Assembly: GCA_015075625.1 (NCBI GenBank)
Contig: JABTTZ010000003.1
Span: 372,001-436,000 of the forward strand
DNA length: 64,000 nt
Reading direction: 5' to 3'
Source of the DNA: Anaerolineales bacterium
Lineage (GTDB): Bacteria; Chloroflexota; Anaerolineae; Aggregatilineales; UBA2796
The notes under the pieces were generated by a model. The model did not search any database. It saw only the letters and a program-made list of their open reading frames with translations, and had not been told where the DNA came from. The position numbers were made by a program, and so were the translations under genes. Shown piece by piece: positions 5,151 to 25,024 of this stretch; position 1 is the first letter of the stretch; the number at the start of each line of letters is the position of its first letter.

Positions 5151-7544
5151 ATGCCACACTTTGTTGACTTTGACCTAATCCTTGATCCCGACCCGAACGA
5201 TCCTGAGCGCGTTATTATCACCGCTCAGACGTTGAACGCCACACAGCAAGCCTCCTTTGCCTTTCCCTACAACGGCGTGATGCTTGAAACACGCCTCGAT
5301 AAATTGGAGAAACTGCTTAGTAAAGGGACGCGCGCCTTCAACCTTGCCTCTGCGCCGAATGTCCCTGAACGGGAACGCCCTGTGCGGGAATTGGCGGTGG
5401 CGATGTTCGAGTCCCTGCTGCCGGGGGAACTGCGAGCGCTTTATCGACAGGCGCACAATTACGTTCACCACCAACAACTCGACGGGGTACGTCTGCGCTT
5501 GCGGATCAACACTCCGCAGTGGAACAGCTTGCCATGGGAATTTATGTATGATCCAGACAGCTCATGTTATGTGGGCGTCAAGAGCAATACACCGATCATT
5601 CGCTTGCCTGAACTCCGCCAGCCGCCGCCGCCGCTCACGGTGGAGGGGACGCTCCGCATTTTGGCGATGATCGCCAACCCCGATGATCCTCACTTAGATC
5701 GGTTGAATGTGGAGCGCGAGCGTGAACGCCTACAACAGGCAATCCACGGCACGGCAATCGAGGTGGAGTGGATCGCGGGGACGGTGGATGCCTTGGCAAA
5801 CGCCCTCACCAATGGGCAGCGTTGGCATGTTTTCCATTACATTGGACATGGCGGCTTTGACGAACGAAACGGCGGACTCCTTGCCTTTGAAAATGCAGAG
5901 GGAAAGGTCTATCCCTACCGCGCCGAACATTTGAAAAACCGCCTGACAGGGCATCCTAGCCTTCGCTTTGCCTTTCTCAACTGTTGCATGAGTGGCACAA
6001 CGGGCAAGGCGGATGTATTCAGCAGCACGGCGGCAACCCTCATTCGGGGCGGGTTGACGGGCGTTTTGGCGATGCAATTTGAGGTGAGCGATAACGGGGC
6101 GATCCGCTTTGCCGAACAGCTTTATCAGGGGCTGGTGAAGGGTCAGCGTCTAGAAACCACCGTCACCGAAGCCCGTTTGCGCCTCAGCGAATTGGAAAGC
6201 TTTGAGTGGGGGACGCCTGTCCTCTACCTTGCCTCCCCCGACGGGGTATTGTTTACGGTGCAGACTACAGGGCAGCCCACCCAGAACCCCATCCCCGCCG
6301 CAGTACCTGCTGCCCCACCGCCTTCTTCGCATCCCCGCTTGCCGGATACAGAGAGCAGTGGGACGGCTGCCGAGGACCCCCTCCGGCTGTTCAATGAGGC
6401 AAGCGCCTGTGTAGAGGGCGAACGCTACAGCGAGGCAACTGCCCTCTACGAACGGCTTTTGGGGTGGGCGCCTCCCTTCCGTGAGCGGCAGGTACGCGCC
6501 CTCTTGAAGCAGGCGGAAGAACTTCTTGCCGAACAAGAGAAGGCACGCGCTGCGCAGAAACGGCTGGAAGAAGCAAAAGAACGTTTTTCGGACTTGGAAA
6601 CCTTCGTCGGGCTTGCCCGAACAGAGAACGCCAAAGCGCACGCCCGCGAGGAGATTCAGCAGTTCTTAGCGGATTACCCCGAATACAAGACCGACGCCAA
6701 CGTCTTGGCGCTGTGGGAGAGGGTGAAACCGCCCCCACCGCCGCCCCCCCCCGAACCCGCCCCGGGCACGCGGATGACCGACGAGAAAGGGGTAATCATG
6801 GTCTACGTCCCGCCGGGGACGTTCCAAATGGGGAGCAGCAATGATGATGACGAGCAGCCGATCCGTCCGGTGACCATTGAACGGGGCTTCTGGCTTGACC
6901 TGACGCCGGTGACAAACGCCTCCTATGCCCAATTCATCACGGACGGCGGCTACAAAACGGAAACATACTGGACGCCCGGCGGCTGGGCATGGCGGAAAAC
7001 GGCGAACAAGACCGCACCGAGGGACTACGACGGCTTCACCGCCCCCCAGCAGCCCCGCGTGGGGGTGACATGGTTCGAGGCAGATGCTTACTGCCGATGG
7101 CGAGGTGGACGGCTGCCCACCGAGGCGGAATGGGAATGGGCAGCGCGGGGAGAAAGGAGTCTCGTTTACCCTTGGGGAAATGACTTCAAGCGCGATAGCA
7201 GCGTGGTGATCTATCGTGAGAATTCTGGCGAAAAAAGCCACCCTGTGGGGGAGGGGATACGGGTGGCGGGGGCGTCATGGGTGGGGGCGTTGGACATGAG
7301 CGGGAATGTGTGGGAGTGGATAAGCAGCCTCTACACCCCATACCCTTACGACGGCAATGACGGGCGCGAGGCGGACACCGGAGACCGCACGGATGTTCGG
7401 CGCGTGCTGCGGGGCGGGTCTTGGAACAACAATCAAGACAACGTTCGCGCTGCGAATCGGAACAGGAACAACCCTACCAACCAGAACAACAATAGGGGGT
7501 TCCGTCTTGCCCGACCTTGCACCTACGAAACAAGCGTAAGCTGA
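5151..7544 (+). CDS. CHAT protease-FGE-sulfatase fusion with DGR-like variable tail
   Basis: 797 residues, no signal peptide. Residues ~150-370 are a CHAT (caspase-like) peptidase: histidine in 'YIGHGG' (H233) and the 'FLNCCMSG' motif, where C279 aligns with the catalytic cysteine. Residues ~385-540 are helical and charged, ending in a run of prolines at ~535. Residues ~545-790 are an FGE-sulfatase/SUMF1 C-type-lectin-like domain ('VPPGTFQMGS', 'LPTEAEWEWAARG', 'MSGNVWEW', 'RVLRGGSW'). After RGGSW the sequence is extraordinarily Asn-rich (12 Asn in ~30 residues, nearly all AAC/AAT) before the 'GFRLARP' end, as in DGR target proteins. CHAT proteins linked to FGE-like modules are known from bacterial conflict and programmed-death systems, so I infer a ligand sensor coupled to a protease. 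It stands alone, with a terminator downstream. Confidence 0.88.
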   Translation: MPHFVDFDLILDPDPNDPERVIITAQTLNATQQASFAFPYNGVMLETRLDKLEKLLSKGTRAFNLASAPNVPERERPVRELAVAMFESLLPGELRALYRQAHNYVHHQQLDGVRLRLRINTPQWNSLPWEFMYDPDSSCYVGVKSNTPIIRLPELRQPPPPLTVEGTLRILAMIANPDDPHLDRLNVERERERLQQAIHGTAIEVEWIAGTVDALANALTNGQRWHVFHYIGHGGFDERNGGLLAFENAEGKVYPYRAEHLKNRLTGHPSLRFAFLNCCMSGTTGKADVFSSTAATLIRGGLTGVLAMQFEVSDNGAIRFAEQLYQGLVKGQRLETTVTEARLRLSELESFEWGTPVLYLASPDGVLFTVQTTGQPTQNPIPAAVPAAPPPSSHPRLPDTESSGTAAEDPLRLFNEASACVEGERYSEATALYERLLGWAPPFRERQVRALLKQAEELLAEQEKARAAQKRLEEAKERFSDLETFVGLARTENAKAHAREEIQQFLADYPEYKTDANVLALWERVKPPPPPPPPEPAPGTRMTDEKGVIMVYVPPGTFQMGSSNDDDEQPIRPVTIERGFWLDLTPVTNASYAQFITDGGYKTETYWTPGGWAWRKTANKTAPRDYDGFTAPQQPRVGVTWFEADAYCRWRGGRLPTEAEWEWAARGERSLVYPWGNDFKRDSSVVIYRENSGEKSHPVGEGIRVAGASWVGALDMSGNVWEWISSLYTPYPYDGNDGREADTGDRTDVRRVLRGGSWNNNQDNVRAANRNRNNPTNQNNNRGFRLARPCTYETSVS

Positions 7545-22099: not shown

Positions 22100-23287
22100 T
22101 TAGCTATCGGACAGGGCTACTAACTGTCCCCGAAAGGTAGCGGCGAGGTCGGGCGCGGTTTGCCCGATATGGGCGATCAACCCAAGCACGTAGCCGCGAA
22201 AGTTTGGATGGTTCATCCGGTTTTGGGCGTTTAACCCCGTCTGCGCTGCGTTATGAAGAATTGCCCGCACCTGACGGCGCATCTGGCGGGGGGTATTCAC
22301 TTTATCGTTGACAACCAACCCGGTGACAATCTGGCGCTGCCCGCGCTGGTAAAAGCGTGTCTTTTTTGGATGGACAGTGAACCCTTCAGCGGCGATGATA
22401 TGCCCCGCTGTTTTCATCAGTTTGAACAGAACATCCCGATCCTCGCCAGAAAAGGTGAGATCGTCGGCGTAGCGGGTGTAGGTGACACCGCGTTTCACCG
22501 CCAAACCCGCCAAGCGTTTATCCAAGCGGCGGGCGGCAAGGTTTGCCAGCGCGGGACTCGTTGGCGCACCTTGTACCAACGCACGGGGGCTAAGTCCAGC
22601 ATAGTAGGGACGATCTGGGCGCTGAATCATTTCGCGGTCACTTTCCGTGCAAAGTAACGCCAACACCGAGGCGATGGTGTAGCCATAGCCCAATCCAGTG
22701 AACAAGCCGCGCACCCGCCGAAAGGTGATTGAGGGAAAGAACTCCTTTAGGTCAAGGTTAAGGACAAAAGGCTTACCGGCATGGGGGCTGGCATTCGTCA
22801 CGATGTTTCGTCCCTTCCGAAAGCCGTGTGCTGGCTCGGTAAGCACAATTTTATTCAAGATCTCAGCAAGAATTTTACGTTGGATTGCCTTCAAGCCTGT
22901 TTTAGGGGCAAGGATTACCCGCTGCCCGCCGCTCCGTTTGGGAAGAACATAGCGCACATAATGGTAGACGCTGCTGGTCGTTTGGTTGTAGGTGTACCAG
23001 CGCAAACGGGAGAGCTCGACGTTCAGCCACTCTGCCAATGCTTTTTCGTTTTTCAGGATGGGGAGGTTTTGGGCGGTGAGTTTTTTTTCGTTTAGCGCAC
23101 GGCGGCTCAGGTTTTGGCTGTTTAAGCCCACCCCAAAATAGCGACGATCTCGACGGCGGCGTTCGCGGCGCTGCTGTTCGCGTTCGGCACGCCATTCGGA
23201 TTGTTCGCTACGCCAATCGGCTGAACGCCATTGGAGTTCCTCATCCGTGTAACTCAGCCGCCAAGCCCGTAGCGCATCGGATGTCAT
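22100..23287 (-). CDS. Retron reverse transcriptase
   Basis: 395 residues. It makes multicopy single-stranded DNA from the adjacent non-coding RNA; retrons act as anti-phage sentries. RT motifs in order: 'LNLDLKEFFPSI' (177-188), 'VQGAPTSPALANL' (238-250), catalytic 'YTRYADDLTFSG' (YADD at 273-276), 'HPKKTRF'. Two retron signatures are present: NAxxH as 'NASPH' (165-169) and VTG (321-323). Family length is ~300-400. The first ~50 residues are a Trp/Glu/Arg-rich helix ('WRSEQSEWRAEREQQRRERR') not needed for RT activity. GAGGAG precedes ATG 23287, which lies 43 bases after the ncRNA. Probable effectors are the divergent genes at 23619-25024. Not a DGR or group II RT by motif. Confidence 0.93.
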   Translation of the reverse strand: MTSDALRAWRLSYTDEELQWRSADWRSEQSEWRAEREQQRRERRRRDRRYFGVGLNSQNLSRRALNEKKLTAQNLPILKNEKALAEWLNVELSRLRWYTYNQTTSSVYHYVRYVLPKRSGGQRVILAPKTGLKAIQRKILAEILNKIVLTEPAHGFRKGRNIVTNASPHAGKPFVLNLDLKEFFPSITFRRVRGLFTGLGYGYTIASVLALLCTESDREMIQRPDRPYYAGLSPRALVQGAPTSPALANLAARRLDKRLAGLAVKRGVTYTRYADDLTFSGEDRDVLFKLMKTAGHIIAAEGFTVHPKKTRFYQRGQRQIVTGLVVNDKVNTPRQMRRQVRAILHNAAQTGLNAQNRMNHPNFRGYVLGLIAHIGQTAPDLAATFRGQLVALSDS

Positions 23288-23330
23288 GTCCGCTCCTCTG
23301 AAATAAATTTTGTTCAGTTAGGAAAAAAAC

Positions 23331-23487
23331 AGGTCACACAATGTTGGCGCGGGTTACTATCACGAGTCTTGGAGCAGGACACCACTTGTTCGAGAGCGGT
23401 GTCCTGTGACGAAGTGATGGGGCTAGTGTCCCGCCGCGACGTAACATCGCAGCATTCTGGCTAACCACGCTTGGTCTTGTGTGACCT
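23331..23487 (-). ncRNA. Retron msr-msd non-coding RNA
   Basis: About 157 nt transcribed toward the RT gene. A perfect 11-bp inverted repeat closes it: a1 AGGTCACACAA (minus strand 23487-23477) and a2 TTGTGTGACCT (23341-23331). Inside, reading 5' to 3', are small hairpins of msr type (ACCA-AGCG-TGGT, then TTAGCC as possible branch-G context, then GCGA...TCGC). A long msd hairpin follows: outer ATCAC...GTGAT, inner perfect 9-bp stem CAGGACACC/GGTGTCCTG (23406-23398 with 23383-23375), loop ~14. Seven Ts follow a2 directly (23329-23323), so the a1/a2 stem could also terminate the short RNA. Order promoter-a1-msr-msd-a2-RT matches known retrons. Confidence 0.82.
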
Positions 23488-23618: not shown

Positions 23619-24338
23619 ATGACGAACGCGCCAACCGCCGAAAATGGCGGAAACCTCCCTGAGGCAAGCCCTCCCCTCGCCGCACCGTCGGCTAACCCAC
23701 CAGATGCCATGAACCGCCGTCCGATCACGCAGCAAGCGCGGAACTATCGGCGTTATTGGCCCGCGTGGATGAAGCAAATGCCCTATTTACGCCTTCCCGC
23801 GCCAAAGGATGATTTCTCCCTGATTGATCGGGCAGAGATGCGCAAGGTGTTGGGCGATACCGCGCCGGAGGTGATTCGCGCTATCGAGCGCGATCTTGAC
23901 CTGCTGGAAGCAGACGTGAGCAAGCTGTTCAGCCGCCGTGACGCCCAAGCTGCCCAATATCAAAACCGCTTTCGGCTCTACCAAGTGGGCTATATCATCC
24001 TCGCCATGATAGCCACACTCTTAGGTTCGCTGATGGTTTTAGCCCTGAATAATGAACCGCGTTGGGTGCCGGTGATTGGCTTTGGCGAGACGGTGATCGC
24101 ATTGTTAGCAACATTTTTGGCAAGCCTTTCTGGGCGGGGGGAAAACCCCCTCAGCGCGTGGCTGGATAACCGCCGCCGCGCCGAAAACCTTCGCCGCGAA
24201 TTCTTTCGCTACCTGATGAAATTACCGCCCTACGACGCTCTGAACGGGGCAGCACGGCGAACGACACTCTCGAAACGGGCAGCGTTGATCAATCAGGGGC
24301 AAATGCCCGATATAGGCACGAATGGGAAGGACTCATGA
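23619..24338 (+). CDS. SLATT/DUF4231-type two-helix membrane protein
   Basis: 239 residues. A ~35-residue disordered start is followed by a helical cytosolic region, a membrane hairpin (TM1 ~123-143 'VGYIILAMIATLLGSL', TM2 ~149-171) and a helical tail with 'WLDNRRRAENLRREFFRYL' and a 'PPY' turn. This is the pattern of DUF4231/SLATT proteins, predicted pore-forming effectors of conflict systems. GAGAGG at 23604-23609 precedes the start. It is divergent from the retron RT and overlaps the next gene by 4 bases. I infer a membrane-depolarising effector controlled by the retron; it could be an independent defence module. Confidence 0.75.
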   Translation: MTNAPTAENGGNLPEASPPLAAPSANPPDAMNRRPITQQARNYRRYWPAWMKQMPYLRLPAPKDDFSLIDRAEMRKVLGDTAPEVIRAIERDLDLLEADVSKLFSRRDAQAAQYQNRFRLYQVGYIILAMIATLLGSLMVLALNNEPRWVPVIGFGETVIALLATFLASLSGRGENPLSAWLDNRRRAENLRREFFRYLMKLPPYDALNGAARRTTLSKRAALINQGQMPDIGTNGKDS

Positions 24339-25024
24339 GCGACCAACCAACCAGACCACGCGCCAACGAACTTCCTCAACAGCCGATTCAGGACAGCCAA
24401 CTGGTGCAAGATCGGCGTTACATGGAAGCACTGAACAAGCTGTTCAATCGGTTTGCCGTTGAAGATCAGCGCGTGTACTACGAATATGCCATTGAGCGCA
24501 ACCGACGGGCTGGCTCACAGGTGAGTTTGATACGGGCGTTTACCGCGTTTGTAGCGGGCTTTGCGGCGGCGCTGACTGCCCTTTTGGTGCAGTCGGTGTT
24601 TGTTCCGGGGGCGCAATGCACGATGGACACCGCCGGAATTTCGTATTGTGATACGATGAAGTTCCTCGTCTCGCTGACGACCCTGATCGCCGTTATTGCC
24701 CCTGCCATTGGCTCAGCCTTTAACGGACTTTCCGATTTGTACCAGTGGGATCGGCAGGTGGGGATGTTCACCTCGGCATTGGAAAGCCTTGTCGTCGCTG
24801 ATGCCTACTCCCCCGATTCGGAGGAAGCGGACACCTACTATCGCGCCTCGTTAAGCGCCTTTGCGCAAGGGACGCTGGAGGTTATGGAGAGCGAAACGGC
24901 GCAGTGGGGGCAGCTTGTCCGCACGCCGGAACAAATCGAAAAATTCCTTGCCGAGTCGCTGGCGCGTCAGCAGCAGGTGATCAATGCCGCTGCTGAGCAG
25001 CGATTCAGCCCACCGCAGGGGTAG
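24335..25024 (+). CDS. Second SLATT-like two-helix membrane protein
   Basis: 229 residues, starting on the ATGA overlap with the previous stop. TM1 is ~65-89 and TM2 ~108-130; two cysteines (C95, C105) lie in the short loop between them. The tail (131-229) is helical with 'TLEVMESETAQWGQL', the acidic-tryptophan pattern typical of SLATT C-termini. Similar size and topology to its partner suggest a hetero-oligomeric membrane effector. Paired SLATT proteins next to nucleic-acid- or nucleotide-based sensors are known in conflict islands. The assignment to SLATT is by pattern only. Confidence 0.68.
   Translation: MSDQPTRPRANELPQQPIQDSQLVQDRRYMEALNKLFNRFAVEDQRVYYEYAIERNRRAGSQVSLIRAFTAFVAGFAAALTALLVQSVFVPGAQCTMDTAGISYCDTMKFLVSLTTLIAVIAPAIGSAFNGLSDLYQWDRQVGMFTSALESLVVADAYSPDSEEADTYYRASLSAFAQGTLEVMESETAQWGQLVRTPEQIEKFLAESLARQQQVINAAAEQRFSPPQG

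Follow-up and report, generated by a model that had tools for sequence, protein, structure and literature searches.

An msr-msd RNA and its reverse transcriptase in an Anaerolineales genome as one half of a probably split, type XIII-related retron

Retron types, including type XIII, are reportedly defined by a classification that Mestre et al. put forward in 2020. As modelled in PADLOC, type XIII systems include, along with a SWIM protein, a large repeat protein of the WGR or HEAT/ARM kind. At 69 of the 80 reverse transcriptase (RT) loci nearest to the one described here, a SWIM_XIII homologue is found in the 6-kb flanks, in most cases immediately upstream of the RNA, and the gene for a large repeat protein precedes the SWIM gene in the loci checked. 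In type XIII families at large, the RNAs are built in a related way and carry TTGCA as well as a GGGCGG stem. Ec86 and the other solved retrons have other effectors, which are encoded beside the RT or fused to it. In the literature searched, outside which many subscription papers lie, type XIII biology is named only and not described further.

The locus compared here with these systems is found in a window of 64,000 nucleotides, the whole stretch of DNA that was analysed (contig JABTTZ010000003.1, positions 372,001 to 436,000, assembly GCA_015075625.1), from an Anaerolineales bacterium of the Chloroflexota whose genome is called G000 below. The retron elements of the window are oriented on the minus strand. 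The RT (395 aa, 22100-23287) starts 43 nt 3′ of the a2 arm of the RNA, after a likely ribosome-binding site, and carries the motifs NASPH (of the form NAxxH), VTG and YADD, all invariant in homologues and all, together with the 43-nt spacing, already named by the initial annotation. It matches Pfam RVT_1 (E 9e-23), and the PADLOC model RT_XIII gives 465.9 bits (E 4e-140), the next model scoring 370 bits, about 95 lower. A sequence search of the PDB returned retron RT structures as the best matches, and in an RT tree the window RT is placed among the RTs of 75 systems with SWIM_XIII-like proteins. Judged from its sequence, the RT is a member of the described retron type XIII clade. Its closest relatives come from Chloroflexota, namely the metagenome-assembled genomes (MAGs) Anaerolinea sp. 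CH2 (G301, locus L010; 61% identity) and CFX4 (G310, locus L011; 58%), locus L012 (54%) and three genomes at 50-52%; viral contigs and plasmids yielded more distant matches only, the best at 40% and 50% identity. We also observed that the genome of locus L023 (G362, Sandaracinus) encodes three RTs resembling type XIII, along with three or more SWIM genes.

The RNA itself is a non-coding msr-msd transcript of 157 nt (23331-23487), supported by its fold, by homologous RNAs adjoining related RTs and by its single significant copy in the genome: the covariance model R1, trained on this RNA class, finds it with 128.8 bits beside the RT only. Its 5′ end is the a1 arm AGGTCACACAA (23477-23487) and its 3′ end the a2 arm TTGTGTGACCT (23331-23341), both placed by the fold, by complementarity and by the arm-swap test described below, and the two form the 11-bp perfect inverted repeat that the initial annotation had reported. 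When the 331-nt spacer was shuffled 2000 times with dinucleotides preserved, 12 of the shuffles contained such a repeat with arm starts 80-250 nt apart. Folding of the 157 nt, which the initial annotation had proposed as a check, gave -68.7 kcal/mol against -45.2 ± 4.0 for shuffled sequences (z -5.84), a value equalled by 0 of 200 shuffles; the repeat is unlikely to occur by chance, and the fold even less likely. The fold is predicted to contain two stems, one nested in the other, along with an msr stem-loop and a 12-bp msd hairpin. The msr stem-loop GCTGCGATGTTACGTCGCGGC (23433-23453) was expected from the initial annotation, and its stem is mostly identical across all six sequences compared. 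The predicted msd region of about 60 nt (23359-23418) has its hairpin inside the second stem, as in the nesting proposed earlier, the hairpin being predicted at 12 bp rather than 9. A candidate for the branching guanosine, assigned by analogy, is position 23461; it belongs to a UUAGC, conserved without change in homologues, that lies just inside the a1/a2 closing stem, at the place of the branching guanosine in known retrons. On the 5′ side of the RNA lies a sigma-70-type promoter, TTGACA-16-TACACT (23525-23498), which scores 10/12 and agrees with the consensus promoter noted initially; its region is also conserved in CH2 and CFX4. The run of seven Ts that had been pointed out directly 3′ of a2 is present at 23323-23329.

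All closest Chloroflexota relatives of the RT have a recognisable homologous RNA, except L014/L004. All six RNAs share GGTTAGCCA and the greater part of the msr stem without change, and their differences lie in the msd stem and in the arms a1 and a2; an msd hairpin, differing in sequence, is present in most homologues. Covariation of a1 and a2, set beforehand by the initial annotation as the test by which its reading could fail, was found: pairing is kept in five homologous RNAs despite changed arm sequences, and when arms were exchanged among the six sequences, each arm paired most strongly with its own partner throughout the matrix, by row as well as by column, own pairs reaching -26 to -48 kcal/mol. 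R1 also matched loci on which it had not been trained, a Verrucomicrobia spacer (L074, E 4e-8) and a Myxococcus spacer (E 3e-5), in both cases between a SWIM gene and an RT. Against Rfam, the RNA had no match at the gathering threshold nor at E up to 5, and R2, a model of the mainstream type XIII msr, gave no significant match in the sequence scanned, its best alignment (E only 0.71) covering the msr stem. The absence of a significant R2 match makes the window RNA, as far as its sequence can tell, a divergent, clade-specific class, and the earlier suggestion that it was undescribed holds as far as it was compared. L014/L004 is a Ktedonobacterales type XIII system with a gap of only ~50 nt between the SWIM and RT genes, and neither R1 nor R2 found an RNA in its 12.6 kb. 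In three different lineages, tandem type XIII RNAs with differing msd stems precede one RT (L044 at 1473 and 1805; L054 at 5230 and 5493; L037 at 4963 and 5479).

That the RNA and the RT are a retron msr-msd and a retron RT is close to certain; they stand in the canonical order, as originally proposed, and they share with Ec86 and the other solved retrons, which are the best PDB sequence matches, the RT motifs and the a1/a2-enclosed msr-msd. The description of the retron as complete had to be given up. Among the open reading frames of the window, SWIM and large repeat-protein genes are absent around the RT, whereas CH2, which belongs to the same genus as G000, has the linked order large repeat protein, SWIM, RNA and RT. 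With the CH2 SWIM protein as query, the G000 genome gave a single match, on a different contig (C2:1057104-1058555), adjoining the gene for a repeat protein of 1110 aa. This SWIM protein scores 476 bits with PADLOC SWIM_XIII and is intact from end to end, including its zinc ligands; the repeat protein has 36% identity to its linked CH2 counterpart over its length, and the two genes form an intact operon, C2:1057056-1061899, with the gene order of CH2. The WGR_XIII and HEAT-ARM_XIII models match none of the repeat proteins of G000, CFX4 or linked CH2. The window RT lies at C3:394103-395287, C3 having 831,881 and C2 1,285,854 bases, which places the RNA-RT pair and the effector operon at least ~618 kb apart. 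Covariance-model and homology searches found no RNA and no RT beside the operon, where a search for RNA or inverted-repeat remnants gave none beyond one 12-bp short-loop hairpin. G+C content is alike at both sites, and the genes flanking them are without synteny in relatives. Because the SWIM and large repeat-protein genes are missing beside the RT, the locus is described here as the msr-msd-RT half of a split, type XIII-related retron variant and not as an ordinary type XIII member, and the distant SWIM and repeat-protein operon is likely to be its partner. The system resembles type XIII retrons in its RT clade, its SWIM_XIII protein, its large repeat protein and, in linked relatives, an RNA between SWIM and RT; it differs from them in an effector operon unlinked from RNA and RT, in TTAGC and a GCTGCGATG stem in place of the TTGCA and GGGCGG stem, and in a large protein without a WGR_XIII or HEAT-ARM_XIII match.

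Several results tie the two halves together, with the reservation that most genomes compared are MAGs. RT, RNA and SWIM are present in the identical 3 of 11 family genomes, a count outside which stand two further genomes with only distant RTs (E above 1e-27). Of the 301 phylum genomes, four have an RT of the type XIII kind (E below 1e-100), and it is exactly these four that have a SWIM gene. The RT tree and a quick SWIM tree of the 75 systems are congruent, G000, CFX4 and CH2 forming one group with the same two outgroups adjacent. RT and SWIM distances correlate at 0.92 overall, and the distances of the window RT are fitted best by its own distant SWIM protein when this is set against the SWIMs of 69 linked systems. 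These data bear on the possibility that the RNA and RT are a solitary retron, needing no effectors or relying on unknown host proteins, and that the distant operon is unrelated. Locus L012 speaks for it, since its RNA (5397-5537) and RT (5702-6859) are present and a search of its genome for SWIM found none; it is possibly a true orphan or an incomplete MAG, and an orphan state may exist. However, the perfect co-occurrence of RT, RNA and SWIM, the congruent trees and the linked order in CH2 make a solitary retron unlikely in the window. At L012, the RNA and RT adjoin a gene that reads like a seryl-tRNA synthetase.

The split is not confined to G000. CFX4 is divided in the same way, its RNA and RT being on contig C21 and its repeat protein and SWIM on C19; the latter operon (L213, 7468-16001) is near apparent genes for type III CRISPR RAMP proteins. 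Three cyanobacteria of the Roseofilum clade and one Cytophagales genome likewise have RT and SWIM on separate contigs. In the Roseofilum clade the RNA adjoins the effectors (R2, 81-84 bits) and an R2 search found none beside the RT; the break point therefore differs from that in Chloroflexota, and the profile scores of one member (G365: WGR_XIII 1200, SWIM_XIII 794 and RT_XIII 652 bits) leave its type XIII assignment in no doubt. In the Cytophagales genome (G366), the RNA was located in neither half. Loci L023, L018 and L032 also appear effector-less, but they are near contig ends and were left out of the split count. Since G000 and CFX4 represent different genera with RT identity under 60%, and since one split is common to the three Roseofilum-clade genomes, the split states look old. 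This argues against the idea that splitting marks a stage of decay, in which a rearrangement broke the retron and left pieces that no longer work together. Such a course would suit the linkage of type XIII parts, which looks ancestral and is kept in most members, but the RT motifs, the RNA pairing, the promoter and the zinc ligands are all intact and conserved, and we consider decay improbable.

On the plus strand, a divergent pair of SLATT-domain membrane proteins (23619-25024; DUF4231/SLATT matches) is a neighbour and not a part of the retron, its first codon following at 131 nt from the RNA. SLATT domains are predicted effectors, one of which accompanies UG17 RTs (PMC8934634), and this likeness, together with the adjacency of a SLATT gene to the RT, could suggest that the pair is the membrane effector of a new retron type. 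Such a reading is very improbable: the window RT differs from UG17 RTs in being a type XIII retron RT, and the pair is spread through the family independently of it, occurring in 10 of the 11 genomes, mostly without a type XIII RT, as compared with three for the RT. CH2 and CFX4 encode both, the pair lying on a contig other than that of the RT, and in four relatives no RT was found within ~8 kb of it, as far as the contigs extend. As a candidate effector it was ruled out by this distribution and by its unlinked state in relatives; we note that it is a free-standing two-gene unit conserved family-wide. The reading that there is no retron at all, and that chance hairpins stand beside a group II intron or DRT-type RT, can appeal to weak matches of the RT to group II and Drt2/Drt3a models, but it is scarcely credible given that retron models score far higher, that the RNA covaries and that retron RTs are the best PDB sequence matches.

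A possible role for the distant operon is suggested by structure prediction. The models were built for relatives of the G000 SWIM protein, which is ~64% identical to that of CH2. The CH2 SWIM_XIII model (pLDDT 86.6, pTM 0.87) had 50 listed PDB matches, all of them sliding clamps, and aligns with human PCNA across 220 residues (Z 15.8, 3.1 Å). A Variovorax homologue (L084; pLDDT 79), modelled from an alignment most of whose sequences are common to that of CH2, gives a PCNA alignment of 233 of 245 residues (Z 21.6, 2.9 Å); residues 68-131 of this protein form a long helix, inserted into its first clamp domain and absent from the CH2 protein. The predicted layout is a complete two-domain PCNA-type fold followed by a helical linker region and a C-terminal SWIM zinc finger, whose CxC...CxH ligands are invariant in 30 sequences. 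The N-terminal ~300 residues of SWIM_XIII are thus predicted to have a fold like that of PCNA and DnaN clamps, from which the protein differs by its ~10% identity and its additional zinc finger; the fold as such does not imply ring formation, DNA loading or function. A PDB sequence search with the SWIM and repeat proteins gave no matches. To our knowledge, there is no prior account of a PCNA-type fold in retrons, and we know of no clamp-like retron effector; the literature searched, with many subscription papers outside it, contained no paper joining retrons with sliding clamps in such a sense.

Taken together, a split, type XIII-related retron acting in trans is probably the best explanation of the window. 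In the established view of retrons, RT, RNA and msDNA restrain a toxic effector until a phage disturbs the complex (PMC12548924). By analogy, the window RNA would fold on a1/a2, and the RT would prime at the UUAGC guanosine and reverse-transcribe ~60 nt of the msd to give msDNA. The complex of RT and msDNA would then join the clamp-like SWIM protein and the repeat protein, both encoded elsewhere, and keep them inactive, and an infection that disturbs the RT-msDNA would release the clamp-like protein or redirect it onto DNA, so that replication stops. All these products are diffusible, and the parts can therefore act from separate loci; should the effector be toxic, a cell that lost only the RNA-RT half would be harmed, which fits the observed co-occurrence. 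An anti-phage function of the window retron appears reasonably likely, and it is possible, although doubtful, that the clamp-like effector acts on replication.

For the family as a whole, we tentatively put forward that type XIII retrons may be clamp-based defence systems, in which the RT and its reverse-transcribed DNA control a PCNA-like SWIM protein on replicating DNA, that their trans-acting parts may have been separated repeatedly, at no fewer than two break points, and that some effector-less or RT-less pieces may be halves of one system. Retron finders depend on neighbouring genes, and a split system is taken by them for an orphan retron or missed; the split case provides a testable answer to the question of why some retrons appear effector-less. 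The predicted clamp fold would offer a first concrete mechanism for the uncharacterised type XIII, one that leads from reverse-transcribed DNA to the replication machinery.
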